Below, in pieces: positions 8,948-33,815 of a stretch of 34,395 nt of DNA (position 1 is its first letter; every line of letters begins with the position of its first letter). This stretch comes from Rubellimicrobium roseum (GTDB lineage: Bacteria; Pseudomonadota; Alphaproteobacteria; Rhodobacterales; Rhodobacteraceae). The stretch lies in contig NZ_VDFV01000041.1 of assembly GCF_006152145.1 (NCBI RefSeq), positions 1 through 34,395 on the forward strand, given 5' to 3'. A program made the position numbers and the translations under genes. The notes below the pieces were generated by a model that saw only the letters and a list, made by a program, of their open reading frames with translations, was not told where the DNA came from and ran no database searches.

Positions 8948-9799
8948 ATGGACAGGCAGGACCCCTACCGCATTCGGGATTACGTTCCGGACTTCGACGC
9001 GATCGCGGCCGAGTTCGCCTCGCGCAGCGAAGCCGTGACCCAACGGGCGACTCTTCGGACTGACATCGCCTACGGGCCGGGCCCTCGCGAGACACTCGAC
9101 CTGATCTTCCCCGACCGGGTCTCCCCGGACGCGCCGCTCCACTTATTCGTTCATGGCGGCTACTGGAGATCGGGAGAGAAAGCCAACTACCGCCTCGTCG
9201 CCGAGCCGGTGCTGAAAGCGGGCGGGATCGCGGCCCTCGTCGAGTACGATCTCCTGCCCGGTGCGCGGCTCGCCACGCTGGTTGGGCAGGTCCGACGCGC
9301 GGCGCTCTGGCTACAGGAGAATGCTCTAGGATTTGGGGCCGACTCGGGCCGGTTCACGGTCAGCGGCCATTCAGCGGGGGCGCACCTCGCCTCCTACCTT
9401 GCTGCCAAGGGGCCGCAGGAGAGCCAGCCGCGTCTTCCGGAGGTCGCTGGACTGCTTCTTGTGAGCGGCATCTACGACCTATCCGAGATCCCTGACAGCT
9501 TCTTGAAAGAGGAGGCAGGAATGACGCCCGAGGAGGCCGCAGCTTGGACGCCGATAACTTCCGCCCAACTTCCGGGTCCGCGGCGAACACTGGTCGTCGG
9601 CGCGGAGGAAACGCGTCCGTTCCACGACCACGGCCAGCAACTGAGCGATCTTCTGAAGTCGCAGGGACTGGACGCGAACCTGCGAGTCGAGCCTGGCCTC
9701 GATCATATGAGCATCGTCCTGGCCCTAGCCGACCCCGACCACCCGCTCGGCCGACATTTCGCTGACATGGTGGCTGGACTAAACGGCTGTTCGCCATAG
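8948..9799 (+). CDS. Alpha/beta hydrolase, kynurenine-formamidase/BD-FAE-like
   Basis: The 283-residue cytoplasmic protein has an oxyanion loop HGGYW (69-73) and a nucleophile elbow GHSAG with Ser142. The catalytic His is probably His253 in Leu-Asp-His-Met-Ser. HGGYW is characteristic of arylformamidase-like and BD-FAE esterases. It follows the aldehyde dehydrogenase by 27 bp and may hydrolyse an ester, lactone or formamide in the same pathway. The last residues and the stop codon lie inside repeat copy A: the frame ends in the repeat core at TTCGCCATAGT, where other copies read TTCGCCAGAGT or TTCGCCAAAGT. The C-terminus may therefore have been reshaped by that element. Confidence 0.88.
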   Translation: MDRQDPYRIRDYVPDFDAIAAEFASRSEAVTQRATLRTDIAYGPGPRETLDLIFPDRVSPDAPLHLFVHGGYWRSGEKANYRLVAEPVLKAGGIAALVEYDLLPGARLATLVGQVRRAALWLQENALGFGADSGRFTVSGHSAGAHLASYLAAKGPQESQPRLPEVAGLLLVSGIYDLSEIPDSFLKEEAGMTPEEAAAWTPITSAQLPGPRRTLVVGAEETRPFHDHGQQLSDLLKSQGLDANLRVEPGLDHMSIVLALADPDHPLGRHFADMVAGLNGCSP

Positions 9800-9857
9800 T
9801 CCAAATCCTGACCCCGCAACCAGATTCGAACCCCGTCACAGCAAGTGACGGGGGTTC
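9787..9857 (+). repeat. Dispersed repeat copy A: initiator-tRNA-like 3' end plus inverted repeat
   Basis: The core reads TTCGCCATAGTCCAAATCC, then a segment ending CCCCGCAACCA, then an inverted repeat at 9828-9857 (GAACCCCGTCAC, loop AGCAA, GTGACGGGGGTTC, with one bulged G). The same order of elements recurs at about 20.98, 28.13 and 33.74 kb, all on the + strand. The first part resembles the T-loop, T-stem and acceptor 3' end of an initiator tRNA including CCA. However, the conserved TTC of the T-loop reads TCC, so it is not a working tRNA. The hairpin could act as a terminator for the hydrolase gene it overlaps. Confidence 0.8.
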
Positions 9858-10085
9858 TATCGTTACGGGCACCGTATACTTCGGGGGTTGCGTCCTCCAC
9901 AACCAGCTTTCCTTGCGTCTGAACGACAGGCCCGGTTCCGTCTGGGGCGGCGCCCTTGTCGTCCGGAGGGTGGCCTCAGGGTGACCTCGGCCGAGAAGTC
10001 TCCGTCCGCGGCCACACCCCCTCTGGCTCCGTGGCCATCCGCATAGCTCCTTTGCCGGCGAAACCGGCACGCCAGCGGCCGCCCG
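9858..10085. other. Intergenic region between repeat copy A and the MFS gene
   Basis: No convincing gene is seen in these 228 bp. The only structure noted is a short inverted repeat at 10053-10069 (TGCCGG, loop CGAAA, CCGGCA). It lies just beyond the stop of the minus-strand MFS gene and could contribute to its 3' end. It has no clear T-run. Confidence 0.5.
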
Positions 10086-11435
10086 TCAGGCGCCGCTCGA
10101 CACGATCCCGCCGCGCACGCCGTCGTCCCCAGTCGCGCCGCTCGCATAGGCGTCCGACAACTGCCTGTAGTAGCGCGAGTTGAACGCCAAGATCGTCACC
10201 AAGAGCCCGATCAGTCCGGCCACCGTGAACACCAGCGCGATGCCGCGGTCCGGCCCGGTGCCGAACCAGCCACCGATGGCGTCCGCTCCGGCCCCGTCCG
10301 TCATGAACGGGATGACGATGAACTGCGTCAGCGGCCCGATCAGAAAGGCTGTGACCGGCGAGGCGGATTGCTCCACTGACTGCGCAAAGCCGAAGACTCG
10401 TCCTTGCCGTTCCAGCGGGACCACCTTTTGCAGCGTCGTCTGCTCCGCCGCTTCGGCATAAGGTCCCAAGAGCATCCATACGAAGCACCCCGCCGCCAGC
10501 AGCCAGATCGAGGGCTGGATGGTGAAGACGCAGCAGACGGACCACGTCATGACGTTCACCAGCAGCAGGGTCCGAATGGGGTTCTTTCCCAAGCCGGTCT
10601 TGGAGATGATGAGCCCGCTCAGGATGAAGGCGGTCGACAGCCCACCGAACATGAGGCCCCACACCTCCACGGAGACGAGCGACAGGCCATAGGCATCCAG
10701 GAGCGCCATAAACACGCCTCCCAAAAAGTTGTTGAAGCAGGCGAAGAAGATCAGCGCGAAGAGGCCCGGCACCGCGGCGATCACTTGGATCGTGCCGGCG
10801 ATGTCGACGCTTCTGGGCTCTTTGGGTGCATCTGCCGATGGCTCCGCCCGGCCCTCGTCGATCCGGATCAGGCTGAGGTGGAGGATTGCCAACAGGGTCG
10901 TCGCCAGCGCCAATACCAGGACACCCAGCATGCCGGTGTAGGCCACGAGGAACCCCGAGATCACTGAGGTGGTGAGAAAGCCAATCCCCGTGACCATGCC
11001 CACGAGCCCGTTGGCCCTGTCACGGCGATCCTCGGGAATGAGGATGGTGACCAGGGTCGGCAGGGCGATGGAGCGAAGGTTGCCGGCAATGACCCCCAGC
11101 ATGACCGTCAGGATGAAGGACCACAGATACAGGCTGTAAGGATCGGTGAAGGCGTCCTGTGGTTCCAGCAGCACCATGGCGAGACTGATCGCATAGAACG
11201 TCGCAGAGACCGCACTGGAGGCCAGCATCGCCGCCTTCTTGGAGTTGTGATCGACGATGGAGCCGAGCCAGATGCCGAACCCGGCCGTCAGCACCAGGTA
11301 GATGCCCGCGATCATGCCCGTCGCGAACACCGAGTGGGTCTCCAGGAATACCCAGAAGGTGATGGCGAACCACACCGTGAAGTTCGTGATGTTGGCCACA
11401 AGGTTGTTGACAAGGACGTTGTAGAAGGTCCGCAT
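10086..11435 (-). CDS. Major facilitator superfamily exporter (EntS/MFS_3-like)
   Basis: The 449-residue protein has about 12 hydrophobic helices. The loop between helices 2 and 3 reads Gly-Ser-Ile-Val-Asp-His-Asn-Ser-Lys-Lys, the equivalent of the MFS A-motif. The arrangement resembles the enterobactin-exporter/macrolide-efflux group of drug and siderophore exporters. It is convergent with the hydrolase at 8948 and begins 141 bp beyond the stop of the PhnB-like gene on the same strand. Substrate is unknown; efflux rather than uptake is favoured by family resemblance. Confidence 0.85.
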   Translation of the reverse strand: MRTFYNVLVNNLVANITNFTVWFAITFWVFLETHSVFATGMIAGIYLVLTAGFGIWLGSIVDHNSKKAAMLASSAVSATFYAISLAMVLLEPQDAFTDPYSLYLWSFILTVMLGVIAGNLRSIALPTLVTILIPEDRRDRANGLVGMVTGIGFLTTSVISGFLVAYTGMLGVLVLALATTLLAILHLSLIRIDEGRAEPSADAPKEPRSVDIAGTIQVIAAVPGLFALIFFACFNNFLGGVFMALLDAYGLSLVSVEVWGLMFGGLSTAFILSGLIISKTGLGKNPIRTLLLVNVMTWSVCCVFTIQPSIWLLAAGCFVWMLLGPYAEAAEQTTLQKVVPLERQGRVFGFAQSVEQSASPVTAFLIGPLTQFIVIPFMTDGAGADAIGGWFGTGPDRGIALVFTVAGLIGLLVTILAFNSRYYRQLSDAYASGATGDDGVRGGIVSSGA

Positions 11436-11576
11436 GTCGGCTTTCCCATGTTGGTGACCGGTCTTTCCCGGCGGGTCCAGCGGTGCTCAGGCGGTCGTTG
11501 AGGAAGGCGACGGAAGCAGGACGGGATTAGGTGCCGCTCCGAGCTTCCGCACGTCAGCACCAGGTCGGCCCCACCC

Positions 11577-12056
11577 TCAGCCTCGCCGGGCCGCCTTGAT
11601 CGCGGCCACGTCGATCTTGCGCATGCTCATCATGGCGGCGAACGCGCGCTTGGCCTCGTCGCCGCCGGCGGCCAAGGCCTCGGTCAACACGCGCGGCGTG
11701 ATCTGCCAGTTCACGCCCCAGCGGTCCTTGCACCAGCCGCAGGCGCTCTCCGCACCGCCGTTCCCCACGATGGCGTCCCAGTAGCGGTCGGTCTCCTCCT
11801 GGTCGTCCGTCGCGACCTGGAACGAGAAGGCTTCGGTGTGGGGGAACGCCGGCCCGCCGTTGAGGCCGAGGCACGGGATGCCGACGACGGTGAACTCGAC
11901 CGTGAGGACATCCCCGGCCTTGCCGCCCGGAAAGTCGCCGGGCGCGCGGTGGACGGCGCGGACCGAGCTGTCGGGAAAGGTCCGGGCGTAGAAGGTGGCC
12001 GCCGCTTCGGCGTCCTTGTCGTACCACAGGCAGATCGTGTTCTTGGGGGTGGTCAT
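11577..12056 (-). CDS. PhnB-like VOC protein (3-demethylubiquinone methyltransferase-like fold)
   Basis: This 159-residue protein belongs to the PhnB-like glyoxalase/bleomycin-resistance superfamily. It has the typical opening Asn-Thr-Ile-Cys-Leu-Trp-Tyr and the alternation of Ala-Ala-Xaa-Phe-Tyr and Trp-Gly-Val-Asn-Trp-Gln segments. Databases often label relatives 3-demethylubiquinone-9 3-methyltransferase, although they lack a SAM fold. The start ATG at 12056 is preceded by GGAGC on the minus strand. The frame is open further upstream to 12122, but that part has no family resemblance. The biochemical role is unknown. Confidence 0.85.
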   Translation of the reverse strand: MTTPKNTICLWYDKDAEAAATFYARTFPDSSVRAVHRAPGDFPGGKAGDVLTVEFTVVGIPCLGLNGGPAFPHTEAFSFQVATDDQEETDRYWDAIVGNGGAESACGWCKDRWGVNWQITPRVLTEALAAGGDEAKRAFAAMMSMRKIDVAAIKAARRG

Positions 12057-12182
12057 TGCTTCTTGCTCCACTGTCCGCGCCGAACTGCTCGGCGCTCCTG
12101 CTGTTGGTGGCGAATGGCACATGCCGATCAGTGCCGTGCCACAACCTTGCGCCTATCGTCACGTCTCAATGGCAGCCGCGGC

Positions 12183-12530
12183 CTAAGCCTCGACCAGCAC
12201 CTCGAAGCCGCCGTAGATCATCCGCTTGCCGTCGAAGGGCATCTCCTCTGCCTGCATCTGCTGGTCGTCCATCATCCGCTTCTACGCGTCATCGCGGGTC
12301 GCCTTGTCCGGCCACCACACCCAGGAGAAGACGACCGCCTCATCGGCTTTGCGCTGGACGGCCATGCTGAAGGAGGTGACCTGCCCTTCGGGCACGTCGT
12401 CGCCCCAGGTCTCCACGCACCGCGTGGCGCCATAGCGCTTCATGATCTCCGCCATCCGGGCGGCGTGATCGCGGTGAAGCGCCTTGTTGGCGGTGGATAC
12501 CGCGGCCACGAAGCCGTCGATGTAGGCCAT
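12183..12530 (-). pseudogene. DUF1428 family gene interrupted by an in-frame TAG
   Basis: Reading from ATG 12530, the product matches DUF1428: Tyr-Ile-Asp-Gly-Phe-Val, then Gly-Asp-Asp-Val-Pro-Glu-Gly, then Val-Val-Phe-Ser-Trp. At codon 83 (12282-12284) there is a TAG. In the same frame the family's C-terminal block continues directly (Met-Pro-Phe-Asp-Gly-Lys-Arg-Met-Ile-Tyr-Gly-Gly-Phe-Glu) to TAG at 12183-12185. Full length would be 115 residues, normal for the family. A single nonsense change with no frameshift suggests a recent mutation, a base-call error, or stop-codon readthrough. DUF1428 function is unknown. It sits between the PhnB-like and DUF899 genes on the same strand. Confidence 0.85.
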
Positions 12531-12610
12531 GATGGATCTCCCTGTTCAACTAAGTCGCTGAAGCTGTTTGCGCTCTACTGTGTTCGTCTGGCCTTTTACG
12601 ACCGCTCGGT

Positions 12611-13321
12611 TCAGCGCCGCCCGGCCCAGTTGAGCGAAGGATACCAATCCGACCGCCGCCCCGCCGGGCTTATGTCGAGGACGTGCCAGAGCGGATCGAA
12701 CTCGGGAGGGTCGCGGGGGTCCTGGCCCGGATCGCTTTCGGTCATCTCGGAGGAGTAGAAGTGACGGATGAGATCGCCATCCTTGCGGAAGACGTTGGCT
12801 CCTGGAATGTCGGCATCCTCGGGGTGGACCCAGTCGCGGGTATAGTCGCCCGAGACATCGCTGTAGACCGGCAGGTCGGGCATGCCGAGCTCGCGTTTGG
12901 CCTCGACCAGTCGTAGCAGCGGCGATCGGGCCACGAAGGCGATGCCCAGATTCTCTCGGATGGCGGGGACCCGCAGGGCAAGGGCGTTCATCAGGCCCGT
13001 GCACATCGGGCAGGGGTTCTTGCGCTGCGGTCCGAACATGTAACTGTAGACGAAGACCGCGTCGTGACCGCCGAAGAGGTCGGCGAGGCTCACCTCGCCG
13101 TCCTCGCCATCGAAGCGGTAGTCCTTGGTCACCACCGCTCCGGCTGGCAGCCCGCGCCGCTCGGCGGCGATGCTCTCGATCTGGCGACGAAGCTCATACT
13201 CGCGCACCAGCAGCCGCTGACGTGCGGCCCGGTACTCATTCGACTCCCCGAGCTGCCGGATCGGGTTGCGGGCGGCCAGCGCCTCGGCTGGCTCAAGGGT
13301 GAAGTCGTCGGGCATGGTCAT
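12611..13321 (-). CDS. DUF899 family thioredoxin-like protein
   Basis: This 236-residue protein matches DUF899, a cytoplasmic family with a thioredoxin-like fold. Visible features are the Phe-Gly-Pro-Gln-Arg-Lys-Asn-Pro-Cys104-Pro-Met-Cys107 segment, where CPMC sits at the position of a redox CXXC, and the C-terminal His-Val-Leu-Asp-Ile-Ser-Pro-Ala-Gly-Arg. Either Met1 (13321) or Met3 (13315) may be the start. It follows the MFS gene at 13407 on the same strand and precedes the DUF1428 pseudogene. The reaction is unknown; a peroxiredoxin- or disulfide-type activity is only suggested by the fold. Confidence 0.85.
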   Translation of the reverse strand: MTMPDDFTLEPAEALAARNPIRQLGESNEYRAARQRLLVREYELRRQIESIAAERRGLPAGAVVTKDYRFDGEDGEVSLADLFGGHDAVFVYSYMFGPQRKNPCPMCTGLMNALALRVPAIRENLGIAFVARSPLLRLVEAKRELGMPDLPVYSDVSGDYTRDWVHPEDADIPGANVFRKDGDLIRHFYSSEMTESDPGQDPRDPPEFDPLWHVLDISPAGRRSDWYPSLNWAGRR

Positions 13322-13406
13322 TCTCCTTGAGCGTCAAGTCGGTGGGTTGATGCGGGCCAAGGCTGTGTTCATCGGGGCATGCCGAGGTCGTCAGGAACGG
13401 CCAGCC

Positions 13407-14621
13407 TCAGGCGGATTGCGGCTGTGCGGCAACTGTCGCCTTCGGGAACGGCCTGAAGGTCATGGCGATCAGGAAAGCGCCTAGGCCCAGGCCGAAGCTG
13501 GTGACGTAGAGCGCGCCGTAGCCCCCGGTCGTGTCGAAGATCCAGCCGCCCAGGACCGGCCCCGTCGCCATGCCGAGCCCGCCCGCCATCCCAGTGCCCC
13601 CCATGATCGTGCCCAGGATGTGCATGGGGAAGTTCTCGCGGATCAGCACGGCATAGAGCGGCATGACGCCCGCGTAGATGAAGCCAAAGGTGGCGGCGAC
13701 GAGGTAGAAGTGCATGAGGTTGGTGGCGAAGAAGAAGCCCAGCGCGCCGATGGCCTGGGCCAGCAGCCCCGCCACCAAGACGCGCTTGGCCCCGAAGCGG
13801 TCGCCCAAAAGGCCGAAGCCCAGGCGGCCGCCCATGCCTGCAATTCCCTCGACCGAGTAGATCGAGACGGCGGCCAGGGCCGAGATCCCGCAGATCTGGG
13901 CATAGCTCACGGTGTGGAAGATCGGGCCCGAATGCGTGGCGCAGCAAAAGAAGTTGGTGAGCACGAGGACGATGAAGGGCGGCGAGGTCACGGCTTCGCG
14001 CACGGTCATTCCTTCGCTCGGCGCGTCGGCGGTCCCATCCAGCGTGGCGGCCTGCGCCGGCGGTCGGCGCAGAAGCAGCGCGAGGGGTAGGGTCGTCACC
14101 GCGACCAGCACCGCCAGGATCGACAGCACGGTGCGCCAGTCGTAGGCCTCGGCCAGCCGCGCCGCGAGCGGGGACATGGTGACCGGAGCCAATCCCATCC
14201 CGGCCGAGACAAGGGAGACCGCCAGCCCGCGCTGGGTGGTGAACCAGCCCATGACCGTGGCCATCATGGGGGCGAAGAAGGCCGCGACCGCGCCGCCGGC
14301 CAGAACACCGAAGCTGAGTTGGAACAACGGCAGTGTGGGCGCGCGGCCCGCAAGCCATAAACTGAGTGCGAAGAGGCTAGCTCCCGCGAGGACCACCGGC
14401 CGGGCGCCGAACCGGTCCGACAGCGAGCCCCAGACCATCGAGGTGACCGCCATGGCCAAAAAGCCGACGGTCATCGCCATGGAGATGCCGGTCCGCGACC
14501 ATCCCGTGGCTTCGGCCATGGGCGTGAGGAGCACGGGGAGGGAAAAGAGCGATCCCATGGCGACGCAACCCATCAGGCCTCCAGCGGCCACGATCACCCA
14601 ACGATACGGTGAATCCGACAT
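13407..14621 (-). CDS. MFS transporter (oxalate/formate antiporter or monocarboxylate type)
   Basis: The 404-residue protein has 12 predicted helices. It has an A-motif-like loop, Gly-Ser-Leu-Ser-Asp-Arg-Phe-Gly-Ala-Arg (about 65-74), and a second, Gly-Leu-Leu-Gly-Asp-Arg-Phe-Gly-Ala-Lys, between helices 8 and 9. The overall pattern resembles the oxalate:formate antiporter/monocarboxylate group. It is divergent from a MarR regulator 85 bp away, a common arrangement for a regulator controlling its transporter. Substrate is unknown. Confidence 0.88.
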   Translation of the reverse strand: MSDSPYRWVIVAAGGLMGCVAMGSLFSLPVLLTPMAEATGWSRTGISMAMTVGFLAMAVTSMVWGSLSDRFGARPVVLAGASLFALSLWLAGRAPTLPLFQLSFGVLAGGAVAAFFAPMMATVMGWFTTQRGLAVSLVSAGMGLAPVTMSPLAARLAEAYDWRTVLSILAVLVAVTTLPLALLLRRPPAQAATLDGTADAPSEGMTVREAVTSPPFIVLVLTNFFCCATHSGPIFHTVSYAQICGISALAAVSIYSVEGIAGMGGRLGFGLLGDRFGAKRVLVAGLLAQAIGALGFFFATNLMHFYLVAATFGFIYAGVMPLYAVLIRENFPMHILGTIMGGTGMAGGLGMATGPVLGGWIFDTTGGYGALYVTSFGLGLGAFLIAMTFRPFPKATVAAQPQSA

Positions 14622-14706
14622 GCGAACGCCTCCTGCGACAGCAGGTCGCTGGTCGCCCAGACCTGCGGATGTTGTTGTGGTGTCGATGCTTTGGTATCAA
14701 GGTAAC
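14622..14706. promoter_or_regulatory. Divergent MFS/MarR promoter region
   Basis: The 85-bp gap holds promoters for both genes. The segment nearest the MarR start (about 14692-14709) is less GC-rich and contains TTGGTATCAAGGTAACAT, a candidate place for an autoregulatory MarR site. A direct repeat of GTGTTCT lies at 14709 and 14720, but it falls inside the first MarR codons. No perfect dyad was found. Confidence 0.3.
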
Positions 14707-15150
14707 ATGTGTTCTGCAAGTGTTCTCATCGAGACCGTTCACGAAATCCGCGACCAGTGTCTCTGCCTGGCCACGCAGCGGGCGGCGCGGCGCCTGGCCC
14801 GAAGGTTCGACCGGCTCTTCGCGCCCCTGGGCCTGACCAATGGGCAGTTCTCGATGCTGGTGGCCTTGAGCGGGCAATGGCGACCGCGCCTGGGCGAGCT
14901 GGCCGAGTTCTTGGGCATGGACGCAACCACGATGACGGCTGCCGTCAAGCCGCTGGAGAAAAGGGGCCTGGTCGCGCTTCAGGCGGACGAGGCCGACGCT
15001 CGCGTCCGCCGCCCCAGGCTCACCGAGACGGGGCGCGACCTCGTGGCCCAAGCCGTGCCGCTCTGGCGCGAGGAGCACGCCAGGGTGCAAGCCGAGCTTG
15101 TGGGGCAGGACGCGGCGGCACTGGCGCGGGTCCTGAAGGATGTGGGCTGA
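14707..15150 (+). CDS. MarR-family transcriptional regulator
   Basis: This 147-residue protein has a winged helix at about residues 61-107, including Leu-Gly-Met-Asp-Ala-Thr-Thr-Met-Thr in the recognition helix. The Asp-Glu-Ala-Asp-Ala-Arg-Val-Arg-Arg wing is typical of MarR. Cys2, Cys18 and Cys20 in the N-terminal dimerisation helix are worth noting, since some MarR proteins sense oxidants through such cysteines; this is inference. ATG 14707 is preferred; ATG 14686 is the nearest alternative. It likely represses itself and the divergent MFS gene. Confidence 0.9.
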   Translation: MCSASVLIETVHEIRDQCLCLATQRAARRLARRFDRLFAPLGLTNGQFSMLVALSGQWRPRLGELAEFLGMDATTMTAAVKPLEKRGLVALQADEADARVRRPRLTETGRDLVAQAVPLWREEHARVQAELVGQDAAALARVLKDVG

Positions 15151-15198
15151 GGACCATGCGGTCGCCCGTGCCGCCTCGGCCGGTGCCTCCACTCTGGC

Positions 15199-16056
15199 TC
15201 ATTCGAACATCCCCTTCGGCGTCTCGCCTCGCAGGAAGGGTTCGACGAAGCCCATCAGGAGGTCGGTCTGCCCGATGACTGCGGTGTGCGACGTCGCCGG
15301 GAGGACGGCGAGCCGGGAAGCGGGCAGGGGGTTGCCCATGTCGCCCATGGCGCCACCACCCAGGAGGCGGAACATGGCCACCGTGTGCTCGAGGGTGACG
15401 ACGTCGGCGTCGCCGGCGATGAGAAGGACCGGCGCTCGAAGGTTGCGCACGTCCTCCTCCCAGTGCTGGGGCTCGTGCTCGAGCGCGATGAGTTTCTCGA
15501 CGAAGCCGCGGAAGCCGTCGGGGTTGGGCGATAGCTCGCGGAAGGATGTCTCCATGGGTGAGCCCACGAACATCTCAGGGCTCATCTGCGGGATCATCGC
15601 CACCATCTCGGGCTGCCAGCCGCTTTCGTCGTAGCTCACCGAGGCCGCCACGAGTTGGTCCACCTTCCCGGGGTGGCGGATGGCGAGCTGGAGGCCGGCC
15701 GCCGCGCCCATGGAGTAGCCGAAGACGTCCGCCGTCTCGAGCCCCACCGCGTCCATGAAGGCCGCCACGTCGTCGGCGAGGTTCTCATAGGTGATCGGGC
15801 GATCAATGTCGTTGGTGCGGCCGTGGCCCTGCATCTCGACGGCATAGACCCGGTGGGTCTCGGCAAGCCGGGGGATGATGGCGCCCATTGCGGGGATGTT
15901 CATGTAGGCGCCGTGCAGGACCACGATCGGATCACCTTGGCCCGAGACCTCATAGTACATCTGCATGCCGTTGACCTCGACGGTCTGCCCCGCGGGCTGG
16001 GCATGGAGGGCGGTCGTCGTCAGCAAAGCTCCGACGAAGGTGGCGAAACGGATCAT
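15199..16056 (-). CDS. Exported alpha/beta hydrolase
   Basis: The 285-residue protein begins with a signal peptide (Met-Ile-Arg-Phe, hydrophobic core, Ala-Leu-His-Ala near residue 19), placing it in the periplasm or outside. The fold is classical: an oxyanion His-Gly at 48-49, nucleophile Ser115 in GYSMG, acid Asp216 or Asp218, and His257 in Thr-Ser-His-Thr. ATG 16056 is chosen because AGGAG precedes it on the minus strand; the frame is open upstream to 16179 but that part looks non-coding. It is convergent with the MarR gene. Substrate is unknown; epoxide, ester or haloalkane hydrolases share this architecture. Confidence 0.9.
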   Translation of the reverse strand: MIRFATFVGALLTTTALHAQPAGQTVEVNGMQMYYEVSGQGDPIVVLHGAYMNIPAMGAIIPRLAETHRVYAVEMQGHGRTNDIDRPITYENLADDVAAFMDAVGLETADVFGYSMGAAAGLQLAIRHPGKVDQLVAASVSYDESGWQPEMVAMIPQMSPEMFVGSPMETSFRELSPNPDGFRGFVEKLIALEHEPQHWEEDVRNLRAPVLLIAGDADVVTLEHTVAMFRLLGGGAMGDMGNPLPASRLAVLPATSHTAVIGQTDLLMGFVEPFLRGETPKGMFE

Positions 16057-26827: not shown

Positions 26828-27003
26828 GGAGGCTCCACTAACGCGTGAACTGGTTCCCGGCACGTCATGCCGCTCTCGGCAGCTGATCACGCCTGCGTCC
26901 CGTGGGCTACCTACGGGCTCGGAACGAGTAGTGATGGAAACGGTTAGGCCTCGTAGCGCCTAGGCAGGCGCTGATCGTCTTCACAGCATTCCAAGGATAC
27001 TCA

Positions 27004-28026
27004 GTGAGCGACCAGCAATCCCGCGCACGCCCCCGCAGCGTCATCACGTCGGCCGGGCAGATTGGCAGCTACAGGCCGTCGGCGGGGACCACAGTTGTCG
27101 CCGGCGCGGCAGCGGCCCTGGCAGGCGCGGCGCTGTTCAACATCTATCAGGCTCGCCAAGCCGAGAAGGCGAACCCACCGCTGGGCCGGTTCGTCGAGGT
27201 TGAGGGTATCCGCCTCCACTATCTGGAGGCGGGACAGGGCTCGCCGGTGGTGCTGCTGCACGGCAACAACACGGCGATTGAGGATTTCCTATCCAGCGGC
27301 CTCTTTGACCTCGTCGCCCGGTCGCACCGGGTGATCGCCTTCGACAGACCCGGCTACGGGCACAGCGAGAGGTCGCGCGACCGGTTGTGGACGCCTGACG
27401 CACAGGCCAGCCTCCTTCGCCAAGCCTTCTCGCAACTCGGCATCGAGCGTCCGGTCGTGCTAGGCCATTCCTGGGGCACGATGGTTGCGACGGCTCTGGC
27501 GCTTCAGGATCCGACGGCCCTGCGTGGCCTCGTCCTGCTGTCCGGCTACTACTTTCCGACAGCACGGCTGGATGTGCCGATCTTCGCCCCACCGGCCGTG
27601 CCGCTGATCGGCGACGTTCTGCGCTACACCGTCTCACCACTATTCGGGCGGCTGATCCTGCGGCCAGCCATCAAGCAGATGTTCGCGCCTCATTCGATCC
27701 CGGCTCGCTTCGATGCCGAATTCCCCAAGGAGCTCATGCTTCGGCCGTCGCAGATTCGCGCCACGGCTGAGGAAGCAGCGTTCATGGTTCCAGCCGCCCT
27801 CGCCATGCGCGACCTGTATCGTGGCCTCCACCTGCCAGTGGAAATCATGGCCGGGGATGCTGACCGTATCATCGGGCACGACGACCAGTCGGTCGCCCTC
27901 GCCCAGGAGCTGTCGTCCAGTTACCTGCACATCGTCCCCGGAGCAGGACACATGGTTCACCACGCTGTGCCGGAACAGGTGGCTACAGCTATCGAGCGCG
28001 TCGCGCACATGGTGCAGGGCCGTTGA
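27004..28026 (+). CDS. Membrane-anchored alpha/beta hydrolase
   Basis: The 340-residue protein has an N-terminal hydrophobic segment (about 29-49, Ala/Gly/Val-rich) that probably anchors it in the inner membrane. A full alpha/beta hydrolase domain follows: oxyanion His-Gly at 86-87, nucleophile Ser156 in GHSWG, Asp in Ala-Gly-Asp-Ala-Asp-Arg near 289-291, and His in Gly-Ala-Gly-His-Met. The GTG start has AAGGAT about 7 bp upstream. GHSWG and the Asp-Arg-Pro-Gly-Tyr-Gly loop fit epoxide-hydrolase/haloalkane-dehalogenase-type enzymes. Repeat copy C begins about 20 bp after the stop. Confidence 0.9.
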   Translation: MSDQQSRARPRSVITSAGQIGSYRPSAGTTVVAGAAAALAGAALFNIYQARQAEKANPPLGRFVEVEGIRLHYLEAGQGSPVVLLHGNNTAIEDFLSSGLFDLVARSHRVIAFDRPGYGHSERSRDRLWTPDAQASLLRQAFSQLGIERPVVLGHSWGTMVATALALQDPTALRGLVLLSGYYFPTARLDVPIFAPPAVPLIGDVLRYTVSPLFGRLILRPAIKQMFAPHSIPARFDAEFPKELMLRPSQIRATAEEAAFMVPAALAMRDLYRGLHLPVEIMAGDADRIIGHDDQSVALAQELSSSYLHIVPGAGHMVHHAVPEQVATAIERVAHMVQGR

Positions 28027-28047
28027 GGGCGGGTTAGGACTTCGTCC

Positions 28048-28201
28048 TGACCAGCCTTGTTGCCGCGGAAAGATGATCTGGACAGCGCTCGCCTTGATTG
28101 ACGTCAGCGAGAGCTCAACCCTAACCGAGCTGTTCGCCAGAGTCCAAGTCCTGCCCCCGCAACCACATTCGAACCACCATCACAGCCCATGTCAGAAGTT
28201 C
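28048..28201 (+). repeat. Dispersed repeat copy C, extended form
   Basis: From 28048 the sequence parallels copy D for about 120 bp: GCCGCGGAAAGATGATCTG, then GTCAGCGAGAGCTCAACC, then GTTCGCCAGAGTCCAAGTCC and CCCCCGCAACCA. The inverted repeat after it (28170-28201) is degenerate here and keeps only GAAC/GTTC at the ends. It lies between the hydrolase gene and the convergent FAD monooxygenase gene. Confidence 0.75.
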
Positions 28202-28205
28202 GAAG

Positions 28206-29738
28206 CTAGGACGGTGACGCGCGGTTCGATACGCTCTTGAACGACAGCTCCCTCTGCTTGGCGTAAGCCTCGACGGCAGCCGCAGCGGTGCGGTTGCTCA
28301 GGCAGCCGATGTGTCCGTCGGGTCGCACGAGCACCGCCCCATCGCGTCGCAATCCCGCCGCATGGGCCTCCGCGTCCCACGGCCAGACGTGCAGGGGCAG
28401 ACCCCGCGCCTCGGCCCAGGCCCGAATTTCAGGCCCGGCCTCCCCGTGCACGTGCACCTGCCAAGTGAAGTTCAGCACCGCGTGGTTGTCCTGGCTCTTG
28501 AGCCAGGGCAGCCGATCCCCGGCCGCGAGCCGGCCCCAGCGCCCGTCAGAGAGGGGACTGTCCCGATAGGAGATCCGCGTCTGGCTGATGGTGCGGAACA
28601 TGAGGGGGCCCAGCACGCCCAGCCGGGACACTAATGCCAGAACAGCGGGCATGACGCGCGTTCGTGTGGTCCGCCCCACCCAGCTGTCGTCCGCGACCCG
28701 CAGGAAGGCGGCATCCGTGGTGGCCACAAGCCTTCGCGCGAAGGGCAGCCGCTCGGGCTCGTAGCTATCAAGGATCGCGGCTGACGCCTCGCCCCGCACA
28801 ACCGCCCCGAGCTTCCAAGCGAGGTTCAGCGCATCTCCGATGCCGGTGTTCATGCCCTGTCCGCCCAGAGGCGAATGGACGTGCCCCGCATCCCCAGCCA
28901 GAAAGCAGCGCCCGTGGCGGAACTGGGCGGCAACCCTGTGGCGGACATGGTAGGTCGAGAACCAGGCCACCTCCGGGGCCTCAAGCCCTGTCAGGCACCG
29001 GGCATCGGGTGCCACATCCTCGTAATCGATGTGGCCGTCCGCCTCTGAGCCTAGCGGCACCATCCCGATCAACCGGGCCCGGCCCTCGGGCAGCGGGAAC
29101 AGAACCGCAAAGCGGTGGGTCCCGAAGCCCAGGACGGCCGTGCCCCCGAGGCGGTGAGCCTGCACGTCGGCCACGTAGAACAGCCCCTCGGCCGTGCCGC
29201 CCTCGAAGGCGATCCCCAAGCCTTCCCGAACTGTGCTCCGACCGCCATCAGCCCCCACGAGCCAATCCGTCCGGATCACTTCGGGCTGCTCGTCGCGCTC
29301 CAAGCTGGCCGTGACGCCCTCCGCGTCCGGCGTGAAGCCCAGGAGCGACGTGTGCCAGTCAACCTCGACGCCCACTTCGGCCAAGGCGCTGATCAACATG
29401 GGCTTATGGGCGTCCTGAGGGTAGATGAGCAGGTAAGGGAAGGGGCTGATCCCCTGGCCCATGCGCCCGAGAGGTAGGACAGCCCGGGGCTGGCCCTCAA
29501 CCCAAACCTCACCGGCCTTCATGAGGAGCCCCGCAGCCACCACCCGGTCGGAAAGGCCGAGGGCGCGGTAGAGTTCCAGCGTGCGCGCCCGCACTCCGAG
29601 TGCGCGGGACTCGCGGGAGGGACCAGGCTTCCGATCCACGATGCGGACCGCCACCCCCATTCGGGCGAGGACCAGGGCCAGCACGAGACCGGTGGGTCCG
29701 GCTCCCACGACAAGGACAGAGGCGTCGCGCTCCCGCAT
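28206..29738 (-). CDS. FAD-dependent aromatic monooxygenase (PheA/TfdB-like)
   Basis: The 510-residue protein is a class A flavoprotein hydroxylase. It has the dinucleotide motif GAGPTG (12-17), the DG motif GADGGRST (162-169), and the second FAD motif Gly-Asp-Ala-Gly-His (282-286) followed by Pro-Leu-Gly-Gly-Gln-Gly-Met-Asn. The C-terminal part (about 400-500) matches the thioredoxin-like domain of phenol hydroxylase-type enzymes, including Ala-Val-Leu-Val-Arg-Pro-Asp-Gly. Such enzymes hydroxylate phenols, polyketides or antibiotics such as rifampicin and tetracycline. Without further data the substrate is open. It diverges from a PPOX-type flavoprotein gene 74 bp away. Confidence 0.92.
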   Translation of the reverse strand: MRERDASVLVVGAGPTGLVLALVLARMGVAVRIVDRKPGPSRESRALGVRARTLELYRALGLSDRVVAAGLLMKAGEVWVEGQPRAVLPLGRMGQGISPFPYLLIYPQDAHKPMLISALAEVGVEVDWHTSLLGFTPDAEGVTASLERDEQPEVIRTDWLVGADGGRSTVREGLGIAFEGGTAEGLFYVADVQAHRLGGTAVLGFGTHRFAVLFPLPEGRARLIGMVPLGSEADGHIDYEDVAPDARCLTGLEAPEVAWFSTYHVRHRVAAQFRHGRCFLAGDAGHVHSPLGGQGMNTGIGDALNLAWKLGAVVRGEASAAILDSYEPERLPFARRLVATTDAAFLRVADDSWVGRTTRTRVMPAVLALVSRLGVLGPLMFRTISQTRISYRDSPLSDGRWGRLAAGDRLPWLKSQDNHAVLNFTWQVHVHGEAGPEIRAWAEARGLPLHVWPWDAEAHAAGLRRDGAVLVRPDGHIGCLSNRTAAAAVEAYAKQRELSFKSVSNRASPS

Positions 29739-29812
29739 GGCGGCCTCCCGGAGACGTAAGCTTGAGACTATCTCGTAGCCACCAGATCATCGCCGATGAA
29801 GGAGGTCGAAGG

Positions 29813-30346
29813 ATGGATTACGATAGCGAGCCAATGCACGTTGCGGAACCAACAAGGGCAGCCAGGACGCTTCTGACAAGAGCTGTGCTGGAGGACCTCG
29901 ATCGGGCCGTGCTCTGCTGGCTCGCCACGGTGGATCAGGATATGGTGCCCAATGTCTCGCCCAAGGAGATCTTCTGTCCCTACGGCGACGACGTGCTCCT
30001 GATCGCCAACATCGCATCGCCGGGCTCCATGCGAAACATTGCCCGAAACCCGCAGGTCTGCGTGAGCTTCATCGACGTCTTCCGGCAGCGTGGCTTCAAG
30101 CTGATCGGTCGGGCGACCGTCATTCCCCGAGATGCTCCAGACTTCACGAAGCTGGCGGAAGGCCTCCTGCGGAAAGCCGGCGCCGACTTCCCGGTGCATG
30201 ACGCCATTCACGTTCGGATCGAGAGAGTGGAGCGGATTTGGGCCCCGAGCTATCGCCTCTTCCCCGACCGCAGCGTGGAGGAGCGGATGCAGAGCGCCTA
30301 TGCGGCTTACGGTGTTCGGCCTTCCAGCCCTGACGAACGCGTGTGA
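29813..30346 (+). CDS. Pyridoxamine 5'-phosphate oxidase-like flavin-binding protein
   Basis: This 177-residue protein has the split-barrel fold of PPOX-type FMN/F420-binding proteins. Features are Leu-Ala-Thr-Val-Asp, Pro-Asn-Val-Ser-Pro-Lys-Glu-Ile, Asn-Ile-Ala-Ser-Pro-Gly-Ser-Met-Arg-Asn, and a conserved Val-Ser-Phe-Ile-Asp strand. GGAGG at 29801-29805 supports the ATG. It is divergent from the FAD monooxygenase and could supply or use reduced flavin, but no partner domain for that is visible. True PdxH C-terminal motifs are absent, so pyridoxal synthesis is unlikely. Confidence 0.88.
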   Translation: MDYDSEPMHVAEPTRAARTLLTRAVLEDLDRAVLCWLATVDQDMVPNVSPKEIFCPYGDDVLLIANIASPGSMRNIARNPQVCVSFIDVFRQRGFKLIGRATVIPRDAPDFTKLAEGLLRKAGADFPVHDAIHVRIERVERIWAPSYRLFPDRSVEERMQSAYAAYGVRPSSPDERV

Positions 30347-30477
30347 GGCCATTCGCTGTCCGCCGAGCGGCGCCCGCGGCGTAGGTCAGGTTTCCCGCCG
30401 TGGACAGATAGAGCGGGAAGGGGATCTTCCGGACTGCCATCACCCGCAGGAGTCTGCGGCGTTCTCGGGATCCGTTC

Positions 30478-31021
30478 ATGCGTGCCTTGTCGCTTTGTCG
30501 CCTCCTATTGGCCTCTCCCGCCTTGGCGCAGGGGCCGGAACTCCTGACCGGGATACACGCCGGCCTTGACGGTGATGGCGTGCAGGAGACCCACATTCTG
30601 TGAGAGACTGGCGATCTCGTGGCGTCGGAGTGGGCTGGGAGCTGCTCGTCCCCGGCTCCGCATTTGTCGGTCCTGTCGCAGGACAGCGGCCGAGCCTGGG
30701 GATCAGCGAGACCGGTTCAGTCCTCCTCCCCTCCATGAACGAGGGGCTGGGACGGGACCGCGTCCGCATGACACTGACCACCCCCATCGCCAAGGAGACT
30801 GGAGCGTCGCGGGTTACACCTACGACTTCTACGACCCGATGGACTTCGAGTCCTTGGGACACTGCGACCTCAACCTGCCCACCGGCAAGGGCGTCGCCGA
30901 AACCGATAAAGGTCCGTTCGCGCTTGTGGCTCCTTCGGCCCCGCTGCTCTGGGAGTGGCGTGCCTTAGAACTGCTCCTTCCCATAGGCAACATCTGCTTT
31001 GACAGCCGGGTGGTCCCATGA
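30478..31021 (+). pseudogene. Frameshifted tandem copy of the adjacent exported protein
   Basis: The first frame (30478-30603) gives a signal peptide, then Leu-Asp-Gly-Asp-Gly-Val-Gln-Glu, and stops. A second frame (to about 30800) resumes with Gly-Ile-Ser-Glu-Thr-Gly-Ser-Val-Leu-Leu-Pro-Ser-Met-Asn-Glu-Gly. A third frame continues with Tyr-Asp-Phe-Tyr-Asp-Pro-Met-Asp-Phe and Pro-Leu-Leu-Trp-Glu-Trp-Arg-Ala to TGA 31019-31021. Each piece aligns in order with the intact gene at 31018. At least two frameshifts have accumulated since duplication. The final TGA overlaps the start of the intact copy (ATGA). Confidence 0.85.
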
Positions 31022-31572
31022 TCCGTCTGAGCGCAATCCTCATGGTTCTTGCCGCACCGGCCTTTGCGCAGCAGCCGGGGCCGTCCGTGCGGGCCGACTT
31101 GGACGGCGACGGCGTGGAGGAACTCTACACGTTGCTCCTTGAGGACCCCGAAGCCGCAGACCCTTCGAACTCGGCTGATCTCGTCGTGCAGACGGCAGGT
31201 AAAGTTCGAGTGGTCGAGGGCGTCGTCTGGCAGGGCAACCATGATGCCGGCCGGCCGGAACTCGACATCGGCCCTGAGGACACGCTCCTCCTCACTGCCA
31301 TGAACGACGGCTATGGGCGCCATCGCTGGTCCGAGACGATCACCATCGCTCACCATGACGGTGATTTGCGCGTCACGGCCGTGAGCTATGGCTGGTACGA
31401 CCCGCTGGACCTCGATGCAGGGGAGACCTGCGATGTGGACCTCGTGTCGGGCCGAGGTCGTGTGAAGACGCCTGAGGGCAGCCGCGAGATCGCGGCGCCC
31501 TTTCCGCCGCCGCTCCTTTGGGTCTGGCGGGCCGGAACTTTCGTTCCTTTCGAGGTCTGCGGCTTCGAGTAG
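31018..31572 (+). CDS. Exported protein with an EF-hand-like DxDGDGxEE motif
   Basis: The 184-residue protein has a signal peptide (Met-Ile-Arg-Leu, hydrophobic core, Ala-Phe-Ala near residue 17). Asp27-Leu-Asp29-Gly-Asp31-Gly-Val-Glu-Glu35 follows, a calcium-loop-like motif also seen in FG-GAP/VCBS-type repeats. The remainder is rich in Asp and aromatics and has one Cys in Glu-Thr-Cys-Asp and one near the C-terminus, a possible disulfide. It is the intact member of a tandem pair and overlaps the stop of the decayed copy. The family is not recognised; a small periplasmic or secreted role is inferred. Confidence 0.8.
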   Translation: MIRLSAILMVLAAPAFAQQPGPSVRADLDGDGVEELYTLLLEDPEAADPSNSADLVVQTAGKVRVVEGVVWQGNHDAGRPELDIGPEDTLLLTAMNDGYGRHRWSETITIAHHDGDLRVTAVSYGWYDPLDLDAGETCDVDLVSGRGRVKTPEGSREIAAPFPPPLLWVWRAGTFVPFEVCGFE

Positions 31573-31654
31573 CGGTGCATGACGAGAGTCACGATGGTAA
31601 TCAGGAGCTGGTGATCAACAGGCCAAACTGGCCTCGCATCGAAGCTCAGCGCTC

Positions 31655-32839
31655 ATGGATCTCGACATTGGAGAAGCAGCATCCGTCGCGCCTCGCGTGC
31701 GGACACGCAAGGCCGCCCTCGATGCCCTGGAGCGGCTGCTGCGTGCCCACGCGGCTCTCAGCGAGCACCGCGACCCGGAGAGCTCCTACGGCATCCTACG
31801 TGGCGCGACCGACGAGGAGCTTGATCTCGTCGAGGCCGTCTTCCTCCACTGCGGCGTGCCCCTGCCTGACACCTTGCGCGCGATCTACCGTCGCACGCTC
31901 GGCGTCGGAAACCCCGTCGCGTCTACGCCCGTTCTGACGGTCCCCTTCCTCAGCGCTGCCCTGCCGGACGAGGGCTTCGGCTCCCCGATCGTCGGCATCG
32001 AGGCCTTCGAGATGGACCTCAAGGTCTTCCGTGACGAGCTCGCCTATGAGCGCCCGCCGTTCCTTCACCTGGGTCACGCCGCGCCAGCCGGCCTGACGGT
32101 CAGTCGCAATGGGCTCTGGTCGGTCAAGGATTACGCGCAGCGCCACCACCTCCCGGCGCTCGAGGACTTCAACCTCGTCTTCGAGACGGCGTTCTGCGCC
32201 TTCGTCGATCAGGTCCTTGTCCTTTGGGCCAATGATCTCGCGGGCGCGCCGGTGAGGAGCCGAGATCTCGACCTCGCCCATGGCGCGCGTCTCGCGGGGA
32301 TGCCGGCCGACGTGCAGACGGCGATCGGGCGTCTTGTCGCGCCGCGCACTTTGAGCCCAAGGACCTGGAGCGAAGCCCAGCCCATCGACAACCCGGACCT
32401 TCTCCGGGCCACGCGCCGTGCTGTGGACCACAGATCGGCCGATCTCCTGACTTCGCATCTGGCCGTTGTGGGTCTGCCCTATGTCGAGCGCCCCGAACTG
32501 GTCGCGCGCATCGTACCAGGGGATCTCCTTCGCCTGCGCCCCGTCGACAACAACCCACATGATCCGAACGCGGTCGAGGTCTGGCACGATGGGGTGACCT
32601 CGATCCGTGTAGGCTTCATCGAGCGCAAGGACGCCCCGATGGTTCGGGCGCTCCCTCCGGATCCGGCCGCCTGGCGCCTCAGGGTCACGGATCGCTCCAA
32701 TCGCGTCCTTGTCGCACAGCTGGAACGTACGCCGCCGGAAGAGGAGAGTCTCTTGGGTGCGAACGGTCCAGCGCAGCGCGAAGAGTCCGACAGTCAGCTG
32801 CAAGATCTCTTCTCGCAACTCCCTTGCTCCAGAGGATGA
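31655..32839 (+). CDS. SMI1/KNR4 (SUKH)-like domain plus HIRAN domain protein
   Basis: The 394-residue protein joins two domains. The N-terminal half has the SMI1/KNR4 pattern Ala-Thr-Asp-Glu-Glu-Leu-Asp-Leu-Val-Glu (51-60) and Leu-Pro-Asp-Thr-Leu-Arg-Ala-Ile-Tyr-Arg-Arg-Thr-Leu-Gly (70-83), with later aromatic strands to about 190. Residues about 267-357 look like a HIRAN domain: Val-Val-Gly, then Pro-Val-Asp-Asn-Asn-Pro-His-Asp-Pro-Asn-Ala-Val (296-307), then Val-Gly-Phe-Ile. SUKH proteins are frequent immunity proteins, and HIRAN domains bind DNA ends in helicases. The pairing is unusual. No signal peptide. No strong ribosome-binding site precedes ATG 31655. Confidence 0.75.
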   Translation: MDLDIGEAASVAPRVRTRKAALDALERLLRAHAALSEHRDPESSYGILRGATDEELDLVEAVFLHCGVPLPDTLRAIYRRTLGVGNPVASTPVLTVPFLSAALPDEGFGSPIVGIEAFEMDLKVFRDELAYERPPFLHLGHAAPAGLTVSRNGLWSVKDYAQRHHLPALEDFNLVFETAFCAFVDQVLVLWANDLAGAPVRSRDLDLAHGARLAGMPADVQTAIGRLVAPRTLSPRTWSEAQPIDNPDLLRATRRAVDHRSADLLTSHLAVVGLPYVERPELVARIVPGDLLRLRPVDNNPHDPNAVEVWHDGVTSIRVGFIERKDAPMVRALPPDPAAWRLRVTDRSNRVLVAQLERTPPEEESLLGANGPAQREESDSQLQDLFSQLPCSRG

Positions 32840-33146
32840 GCGCCGGCACCATGAGTGATCGTCGCCGGCCGTCAGGTCACCGCGCGAACCTATCACATAG
32901 CCTTTACCCGGCCCTGTCGCGCGTCCGGTAATCCCGGGCAGCATGGGCGTGCCCATCCCGGCTCCTTCATAGGTCTTGCTCCGTTCCCATGTCTGTTCCG
33001 GGCCGGCCCGCACGGACAAACCGGAGAAAGCGGTTCCTGCCCGCAGCCATCGCAATCGGTGCCGCGCGAGGAGACTGCGCTCGTGAATCCAATAGCATCG
33101 TTGTTGGCCAGATTGGCCGATGTCAGCATGAAGGACTGCGAATATC
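32840..33146. other. Intergenic region between the HIRAN and ATPase genes
   Basis: No recognisable gene was found in these 307 bp on either strand. The only usable signal is AAGGA at 33131-33135, which precedes the ATPase ATG by 11 bp. Open frames crossing the region lack family resemblance. Confidence 0.4.
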
Positions 33147-33689
33147 ATGGGGCACCACCAGCTTGTCTTGCTCACGGGCTGCTCCGGTGGCGGCAAGTCG
33201 ACGCTCCTTGCGGAGCTTGCCGCTCGGGGACATCGGGTGGTGGAGGAGCCCGGCCGCCGTATCGTCGCGGAGGAGCTTGCGAGCGGCGGCTCGGCTCTGC
33301 CTTGGATCGACATGGTCGCGTTTGCGCGTCGGGCGCTTGAGATGGCTCGGCAGGATCATACAGCGGCAGCAGATCTGGAGGGGTGGACCTTTTTCGACCG
33401 GGGTCTCGTGGATGCAGCCGTGGGTCTGGAGCACCTGACAGGAACACCAGCGGTCGAAAGCCTTGCATCTGATAGGTACCACCAGCGGGTGTTTATGGCT
33501 CCGCCTTGGCCGGGGATCTACCGGACTGACAGCGAGCGGCGCCATGGGATGGATGAGGCGGTGGCCGAATACGAGCGACTGCTCGTCGCCTGTCCGGCCC
33601 TGGGCTACGAAGTCATTCACCTGCCCAGGGTCAGCGTGACAGAGCGGGCCGACTTCGTCCTGGCCAGTCTTGCTGCCGCGACAAGATGA
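33147..33689 (+). CDS. Small AAA_28-type P-loop ATPase/kinase
   Basis: The 180-residue protein opens with a P-loop strand, Leu-Val-Leu-Leu-Thr, and Walker A GCSGGGKST (11-19). Glu-Glu-Pro-Gly-Arg-Arg-Ile (33-39) and a Walker-B-like Trp-Thr-Phe-Phe-Asp-Arg-Gly (80-86) follow. This is the layout of AAA_28 family proteins, related to small nucleotide kinases and NadR-type domains. The length is complete for the family. Its last residues (Leu-Ala-Ala-Ala-Thr-Arg-stop) are encoded by the beginning of repeat copy D. It follows the SUKH-HIRAN gene by 307 bp on the same strand; a functional link is possible but not shown. Confidence 0.85.
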   Translation: MGHHQLVLLTGCSGGGKSTLLAELAARGHRVVEEPGRRIVAEELASGGSALPWIDMVAFARRALEMARQDHTAAADLEGWTFFDRGLVDAAVGLEHLTGTPAVESLASDRYHQRVFMAPPWPGIYRTDSERRHGMDEAVAEYERLLVACPALGYEVIHLPRVSVTERADFVLASLAAATR

Positions 33690-33815
33690 CCTGCACGGCT
33701 CCCGCCCGGAGCGTCCATTCAGCGAGAGCGCAACCGGAGCCGGGCCGTTCGCCAAAGTTCCGATCCTGCCCCCGCAACCAGATCTGAACCCCCGCACCCC
33801 AAGTGGCGTGGGTTC
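33660..33815 (+). repeat. Dispersed repeat copy D, extended form
   Basis: Starting within the ATPase 3' end, it parallels copy C: GCCGCGACAAGATGACCTG, then TTCAGCGAGAGCGCAACC, then CGTTCGCCAAAGTTCCGATC and CCCCCGCAACCA (33769-33780). An inverted repeat follows, GAACCCCCGCAC (33786-33797) and GTGGCGTGGGTTC (33803-33815), imperfect but clear. The first part is coding sequence for the ATPase C-terminus. Confidence 0.78.

Follow-up and report, generated by a model that had tools for sequence, protein, structure and literature searches.

Islands that lie in tandem at the 3' end of tRNA or tmRNA genes are known as a kind. In the portion of the Dehalococcoides report that we drew on, islands lie in tandem behind the RNA gene ssrA, each bounded by a repeat of the gene's 3' end; a motif without match to the gene stands beside each repeat, insertion takes place in the T-loop region, and a serine recombinase of ~540 residues is encoded on the reverse strand beside attL (PMC3146451). 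Of the islands treated in the same portion, 15 have no integration module and are regarded by its authors as possible cis-mobilizable elements (PMC3146451). Such elements, in the excerpt consulted from another paper, have lost their integration and transfer genes, have kept their att sites and are stacked beside later arrivals; serine-integrase IMEs are described in that excerpt as usually disrupting dispensable genes (PMC5704250). In Sinorhizobium meliloti, according to the part of the account used here, tRNA genes are integration hot spots, fMet genes lie in rrn operons, and the integrases are all of the tyrosine type, save one of mixed similarity (PMC11476347).

We analysed a window of 34,395 nucleotides of Rubellimicrobium roseum, which is the whole of contig C86 (NZ_VDFV01000041.1). 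It is very probable that each copy of the repeat found in it is a hybrid attachment site, left by integration at the 3' end of the initiator (fMet) tRNA gene, and that the window is a row of stacked islands. The features are the following (no strand is given for segments):

135 to 9822: segment A, 84% alignment to R. rubrum contig C18, ending at the last base of CCA
9787 to 9822, + strand: junction 1, left arm type 1 (GTTCGCCATAG) and fMet 3' end
9828 to 9857, + strand: right-arm hairpin of junction 1 (Ra), assigned by eye, the strict pattern having missed it
9823 to 21012: segment I, 11,190 bp, ending at junction 2
20977 to 21012, + strand: junction 2, left arm type 1 and fMet 3' end
21016 to 21046, + strand: right-arm hairpin of junction 2 (Ra), the strongest of the four
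21013 to 28165: segment II, 7,153 bp, ending with junction 3
28130 to 28165, + strand: junction 3, left arm type 1 and fMet 3' end
28171 to 28201, + strand: right-arm hairpin of junction 3, decayed
28166 to 33780: segment III, 5,615 bp, ending at junction 4
33745 to 33780, + strand: junction 4, left arm type 1 and fMet 3' end, T-loop part worn
33786 to 33815, + strand: right-arm hairpin of junction 4 (Ra), assigned by eye
~33828 to 33877, + strand: junction 5, left arm type 2 (GGCAACTCTCGGTGGGATCTAGC), core CCCCGCAGCCA at 33854-33864, right arm Rc (CCAACAGTTGACC)
33865 to 34395: start of another segment, truncated at the end of the contig

The pattern GTTCGCCANAGTCCAAATCCTGCCCCCGCAACCA occurs at 9789, 20979, 28132 and 33747, always on the + strand, with 1, 0, 1 and 3 mismatches respectively, and it has 0 matches in 100 dinucleotide shuffles. 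The four-copy + strand repeat described in the earlier note is thus real, with the starts listed above; the count itself was one short, as the fifth junction, which has different left and right arms, had been overlooked. The arms of this fifth junction mirror each other at 15/25.

The fMet tRNA gene of the genome, cut by the end of contig C109, terminates in GCAGGTTCAAATCCTGCCCCCGCAACCA. This shows that the copies do resemble the 3' end of an initiator tRNA and differ from it by a TTC to TCC change in the T-loop, as had been noticed from the letters alone. A genome-wide model search gave 15 matches at E<1e-4, namely three fMet 3' ends and 12 junction copies (three of them partial or with a different left arm). 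Within the window, ARAGORN found no tRNA and Rfam gave no match at gathering scores. Contig C109 has the fMet gene and, on its strand, three junctions, with spacings of 4.6, 7.2 and 8.4 kb, and the orientation of junctions is uniform in each of the five contigs which have two or more. The gene closes an rRNA operon: in G292 the order is 23S, 5S rRNA, then fMet.

The same site bounds elements in other genera of Rhodobacteraceae. At five loci an intact fMet gene forms the near end, and the site recurs on the same strand, 1.9-14.2 kb away, as the far end of a single element. Between species, homology breaks at the CCA of the tRNA: Roseivivax and Pseudooceanicola have 3.2 kb in common, ending exactly at CCA, and the 7.5 kb common to Roseivivax and Marinibacterium end one base past it. 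There is also a filled/empty pair, for in G008 the intact fMet gene and the flank are attached, and Roseivivax has both parts 9.5 kb apart. Of the origins which the earlier note had offered, att-site scars are therefore the right one: the copies have the fMet 3' end, they lie downstream on the strand of the tRNA (C109), and elsewhere they are the far ends of elements.

In some of these elements the tRNA end encodes a large serine recombinase, identified by Pfam (PF07508), on the strand opposite to the tRNA, and the far end encodes a MobV-like relaxase. Among 28 recombinase-like ORFs examined, nine run 41 nt into the fMet 3' end, or into a copy of it, before they stop. Recombinase and relaxase are both present in the Roseivivax loci L252 and L254, which have the make-up of integrative and mobilizable elements; Mob_Pre scores above the Pfam cut-off in L221 and below it in L225. 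In G014 a recombinase element is seated on a copied fMet end, and G315, G292 (C16) and G065 have fMet-site intervals without a recombinase. We had considered relaxase-driven integration on the strength of the MobV-like genes, and dropped it once the serine recombinase was found.

We propose the following course of events. The fMet tRNA gene closing an rRNA operon would receive integrative elements at its 3' end. Each element would supply a copy of that end (attL), by which the gene is kept intact, and a hybrid of left arm and tRNA end would remain at the far side (attR). The crossover probably lies close to where T-stem and acceptor stem meet, at GC|CCCC, which is the symmetry centre of the reconstructed attP. 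Since related elements encode a large serine recombinase beside the tRNA and their attP halves have inverted arms (GTTCGC...GCGAAC), an enzyme of this class presumably made the junctions of the window as well. Elements that came later would enter either at the tRNA or at a copy already present, so that the row points in one direction; the islands of the window, in which recombinase and relaxase would have been lost or absent from the start, would have kept their cargo genes.

The way in which the arms combine is consistent with such a history. Around the one core, each of two left arms is found with each of three right arms, giving all six combinations, both halves having been assigned in 15 of 25 rows and type-2 junctions scanned on fetched contigs only. 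In four attP of type 1 the arms mirror each other in 9-10 of the outer 12 bases, and in type 2 in 8; Ra mirrors either left arm poorly. At the recombinase-bearing fMet sites of G007 and G065 the right arms score 2 and 3 of 12, so that there must be more than one type of arm. The order on C11, where the Rb junction is upstream and the L1 junction downstream, counts against simple stacking. The left side of L072 (C72) passes the loose type-1 pattern and looks by eye like one of its own.

The window itself contains no serine recombinase in its segments by PF07508, tblastn or profile, no MobV homologue, and, like the fetched array stretches of the genome, no recombinase of either kind. This absence counts against the hybrid-site reading, and so do the recombinase-less fMet-site intervals of G315, G292 (C16) and G065, the low-scoring right arms of G007 and G065, the poor mirroring of Ra with its varying offset from CCA, the 1.3 kb between the R. 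rubrum recombinase and its site, and the failure to find an empty site of the C109 array. A tyrosine integrase had been a candidate for the window's enzyme; it was dropped, as PF00589 found none on C86, C109 and C119, contigs which are fragments, and a custom profile none in the array stretches. By PF00589, PF07508 and MobV the window thus holds neither integration nor transfer genes, as in cis-mobilizable elements, and lacks the integrase and relaxase that would make it an integrative and mobilizable element. Its segments look like decayed or cargo-only islands in tandem, and their att-type junctions appear to have been kept, as the excerpt on cis-mobilizable elements describes (PMC5704250). 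The fMet target differs from the usual targets of serine-integrase IMEs given there, being an essential tRNA gene which is kept whole. Compared with what we used of the ssrA report (PMC3146451), the far-end repeat of the target's 3' end likewise lies downstream on the target's strand (C109 and the five loci elsewhere), and the relatives' serine recombinase likewise stands beside attL on the reverse strand, the window's own segments being without one; the target (an fMet tRNA at rRNA operons), the host, the cargo and the MobV-like relaxase of some elements are different. As in the part of the S. meliloti account cited (PMC11476347), alphaproteobacterial tRNA genes serve as integration sites and fMet lies in an rRNA operon, whereas here a serine recombinase would be at work. 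The family and its fMet target look undescribed, the principle being known: in the literature searched no named family turned up, in agreement with the earlier note.

Could the junctions have been made by tyrosine integrases crossing over in the T-loop, the serine recombinases merely using the same target? In relatives, fMet genes do serve as targets of tyrosine integrases, with copies on the anticodon side (G013, G014, G001, G006), and one window-type interval (G373) has a tyrosine integrase at its far-left end. Apart from this case and two weak partial matches (L261, L263), none was found in the fetched window-type loci, nor on the three contigs named above, and the arm symmetry fits elements with a serine recombinase; we therefore hold this origin to be improbable. 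We give little credit, too, to the idea that integrations were few and that homologous exchange, between the copies or between rRNA operons, then multiplied the row and changed its order. Arms that combine freely would suit it, as would two window copies with ~140 bp more of common flank (77%), but the core copies of only ~35 bp are short for such exchange, gene content differs between segments, and independent elements in other genera end at the identical point.

In integrons, recombination sites of one orientation separate the cargo units of a row. The fMet array likewise consists of cargo units between one-directional sites; unlike those of integrons, its sites are tRNA-derived and two-armed, and its units measure 5-11 kb with genes on both strands. 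The fragmentary contigs C86, C109 and C119 showed no tyrosine recombinase that could be an integron integrase. A rather unlikely extension of the hybrid-site reading is that the arrays are an integron-like store, in which serine recombinases from visiting elements, acting in trans, would insert, remove and rearrange recombinase-less islands between tRNA-derived sites, the array junctions being entry points as well as the tRNA. The free combination of arms, the R. rubrum recombinase island beside segment A and the G014 element fit this idea. Worn cores and hairpins argue against some copies still recombining. Should the junctions still recombine, the arrays would be a natural system of cassettes, comparable to integrons and the ssrA islands of Dehalococcoides.

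The hairpin attributed to every copy is strong at junctions 1 (-21.7 kcal/mol, z -5.4) and 2 (-26.3 kcal/mol, z -6.6), weaker at junction 4 (-14.8 kcal/mol, z -2.2) and largely lost at junction 3 (-6.7 kcal/mol, z -3.1). The offset of Ra from CCA varies, being 3 or 5 bases. That the repeat as a whole is a dispersed transcription terminator, as had also been suggested, is very improbable. Two of the four window hairpins are indeed strong, and by eye a hairpin is frequent in the DNA behind fMet genes elsewhere; yet the core persists where the hairpin has decayed or been replaced, base-pair changes on both sides show no covariation (1 pair observed against 1.1 expected in shuffles), and, of the two marks of an intrinsic terminator, the GC-rich hairpin is present and the T-run is, on reading the sequence, absent after all four. 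Termination can be no more than a secondary function of the right arm, whose hairpin may end transcription of the tRNA. As for a tRNA-derived SINE-like retroelement, another earlier suggestion, a tRNA part is indeed present in several copies, but it is the 3' end only, in a single orientation per contig, with left and right sides that vary independently and different multi-gene segments as flanks, so that there is no single copied unit and the suggestion is hardly credible.

On the hybrid-site reading, a family of large serine recombinases has a defined target with clear half-sites, namely the fMet gene closing rRNA operons. The reading also offers a reason for the build-up of metabolic genes (in relatives, phage-defence genes are among the cargo) behind the rRNA operons of Rhodobacteraceae. 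Segment A ends with aldehyde dehydrogenase and hydrolase genes. Segment I carries MFS transporters, a MarR regulator, a hydrolase, a GST and an HTH gene, segment II a hydrolase/NAD-binding gene, LysR, SDR, AraC and a hydrolase, and segment III an FAD monooxygenase and genes without Pfam match. No empty site of the C109 array was found, the far flank of the array not lying beside an fMet end where it matches R. rubrum. A search of a plasmid collection with one repeat copy gave no similar DNA, viral contigs had no exact match to the site pattern, and one window protein had no relative among the genome contigs. In R. rubrum, a serine recombinase island follows where the alignment of segment A stops at CCA, its recombinase ending 1.3 kb from the site. 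Part of segment II (23881-26726) is present in R. rubrum C18 as well, at 84%, and the stretch 34066-34382 of the last segment has a 78% match behind a junction in R. rubrum C33.

The four-copy repeat claimed in the earlier note is real, lies on a single strand and goes beyond chance. Each unit consists of a left arm (GTTCGCCANAG), then the 3' end of the initiator (fMet) tRNA (TCCAAATCCTGCCCCCGCAACCA) and then a right arm, which in most copies is a hairpin whose stem begins 3 or 5 bases past the CCA. A covariance model built on eight copies gave 26 matches at E up to 1 in the genome of R. roseum; 15 lie below 1e-4. Twelve of these are junction copies and the other three are fMet 3' ends; on contigs C2 and C103 the fMet end is truncated by the end of the contig, its left half being unseen. 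Some of the rows of weaker score are the hairpin on the opposite strand. The fMet gene stands at the end of contig C109. Window stretches 28038-28178 and 33651-33793 have about 140 bp in common (77%), extending about 95 bp 5' of the site, and the same stretch occurs on contig C389 of genome G004; from this likeness, the segments ending at these two copies may be related elements.

We searched a sample of 394 genomes of the family for the window-type site, allowing up to three mismatches: it is present in 14, R. roseum counted, while the reversed site pattern is found in none of the 394. In 5 of the 17 stretches fetched around such sites the fMet gene and the site occur together, on the same strand and 1.9 to 14.2 kb apart; several of the others run into a contig end first. 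The Roseivivax element (9,546 bp) holds, in order from the tRNA, a serine recombinase, a reverse transcriptase, a MobV-like relaxase, a small gene and the site. Its recombinase, of which 562 aa were scanned, has Resolvase, Recombinase and Zn ribbon domains, and UG13a (1.6e-201) is the defence model that its reverse transcriptase matches best. Relaxases of this family are present in 6 of the 17 compared elements, and also in Marinibacterium and Pseudooceanicola; relative to the Pfam Mob_Pre cut-off, the relaxase of locus L221 is above and that of L225 below, and Pfam recognises neither that of L233 nor that of L242. Among defence genes in the fMet elements of relatives we noted a UG13a-like reverse transcriptase (L252 5204-7018, oriented) and a type III restriction-modification pair (L260 8587-12943).

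Nine of the 28 recombinase-like ORFs (those of L271, L273, L275, L274, L272, L278, L270, L277 and L269) run antisense into the fMet 3' end, or into a copy of that end, and stop exactly 41 nt inside it; they share the tail VAGxGFEPxxFRL. Hence, the tail of the recombinase would be encoded by its target, and integration would alter the last residues of the protein. In a comparison of the Roseivivax left arm with 67 distinct fMet-type right halves, in which fetched loci are over-represented, eight mirrored it at 8 or more of 12 bases. Five of these sites have an overlapping recombinase of the 41-nt kind and a sixth, in G002, a recombinase match 2.5 kb away; of the last two, the fMet gene of C109 lacks a recombinase and the site in G052 lay outside the recombinase examination. 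Two observations count against this match of arm and recombinase. The recombinase-bearing fMet sites of G007 (C50:19852) and G065 score only 2 and 3, which means that further arm types exist, and the end of the R. rubrum recombinase lies 1.3 kb from its site.

Alignments between genomes mostly break at or next to the CCA. Contig C18 of R. rubrum aligns with window 135-9822 (84%) up to the last base of CCA; beyond this point R. rubrum has an island that contains a serine recombinase frame of 633 aa. Roseivivax has 3.2 kb in common with Pseudooceanicola (92%), ending at CCA, and 7.5 kb with Marinibacterium (95%), ending one base past it; between Marinibacterium and Pseudooceanicola the alignment continues about 50 bases beyond CCA into terminator-like DNA. 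In G008 the flank that lies past the far end of the Roseivivax element stands directly 3' of the intact fMet gene (118 bp at 90%), and in G292 the gene order is 23S, 5S rRNA, then fMet.

Scanning both strands of the array stretches that had been fetched, we obtained 25 rows (16 from R. roseum, 9 from relatives). Both halves were assigned by pattern in 15; one half is unassigned in the other 10, among which window 9787 and 33743 look Ra-like by eye.

Arm types, with pairings in the 15 fully assigned rows
Left arm type 1: GTTCGCC...; with Ra 8, Rb 1, Rc 1
Left arm type 2: CAACTCTCGGTG...; with Ra 2, Rb 1, Rc 1
fMet gene: with Rd 1
Right arm Ra: hairpin
Right arm Rb: AATCCCAGACAAACGG
Right arm Rc: CCRACAGTTGAC
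Right arm Rd: ACTGAAGCGAAC, downstream of the C109 fMet gene

The arms of the junctions recombine; type 1 with Rc occurs in R. rubrum only. Wherever a contig has more than one row (five contigs), all of its rows lie on a single strand. The order on C109 is fMet/Rd, type 1/Ra, type 2/Ra and type 1/Rb, at successive spacings of 4,607, 7,219 and 8,425 bp. On C103 the DNA past Rb is 81-87% alike to that past fMet-end copies in G006 (of the same genus), G030 and Marinibacterium. Rb is probably the original downstream side of an rRNA operon, and the C109 array appears to be complete. This array also contains a TPP riboswitch and a phosphomethylpyrimidine kinase gene (L046 14127-15086, minus strand).

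We propose that the attP of a circular element would join the fMet 3' end; the tRNA sequence would be kept, a right arm gained, and the far end of the element would turn into a hybrid site. The next element could enter at the tRNA or at an existing copy. The latter route is shown by the layout of G014, where an island with a tyrosine integrase occupies the fMet gene; its far-end copy is followed by a serine-recombinase gene and, 23 kb further on, by a window-type site. The mechanism does not account for Ra, whose mirror match to either left arm is poor, for the lack of a recombinase in the fMet-site intervals of G315, G292 (C16) and G065, or for the junction order on C11. There (L055 3749 and 10077), an Rb junction, presumed native flank, is located upstream of a further junction, at odds with simple stacking. 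Intervals without serine recombinase span 7.0, 6.4 and 1.9 kb at L256, L257 and L253; a transporter set is among the cargo of L256, and RTX-repeat proteins are among that of L257.

For the islands of the window itself, a Pfam scan of twenty ORFs beyond window position 7400 gave matches that include aldehyde dehydrogenase, MFS transporters, hydrolases, a short-chain dehydrogenase, an FAD monooxygenase and regulators. No tyrosine recombinase was found on C86 (the window), C109 or C119, no PF07508 match on the array contigs, and neither a serine recombinase (tblastn and profile) nor a MobV homologue in the fetched array stretches. The R. roseum genome has four PF07508 matches (C111, C118, C115 and C108), and the full-length protein, encoded on C111, reaches no more than 44 bits in comparison with that of Roseivivax. 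The islands could have moved in trans; we favour decay, because the hairpins are worn and the core has changes.

Our literature search, weak since subscription journals lay mostly outside it, gave nothing on point about fMet-targeting serine integrases in Rhodobacteraceae; the available excerpts of the R. mesophilum genome paper do not contain "integrase" and mention genomic islands once. The ssrA islands of Dehalococcoides (PMC3146451) have a layout nearly identical to that of the fMet arrays: in both, each repeat is accompanied by a motif that does not match, and some islands lack integration genes. Accretion and cis-mobilizable elements are covered in a review of IMEs (PMC5704250).

Finally, a separate integrase class, of tyrosine type, targets the same fMet gene. 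In G013 (L171, L172 and L173) each of three fMet genes has a copy of a second type 7.3-8.0 kb on; these copies start at the anticodon loop, and a tyrosine integrase adjoins each.
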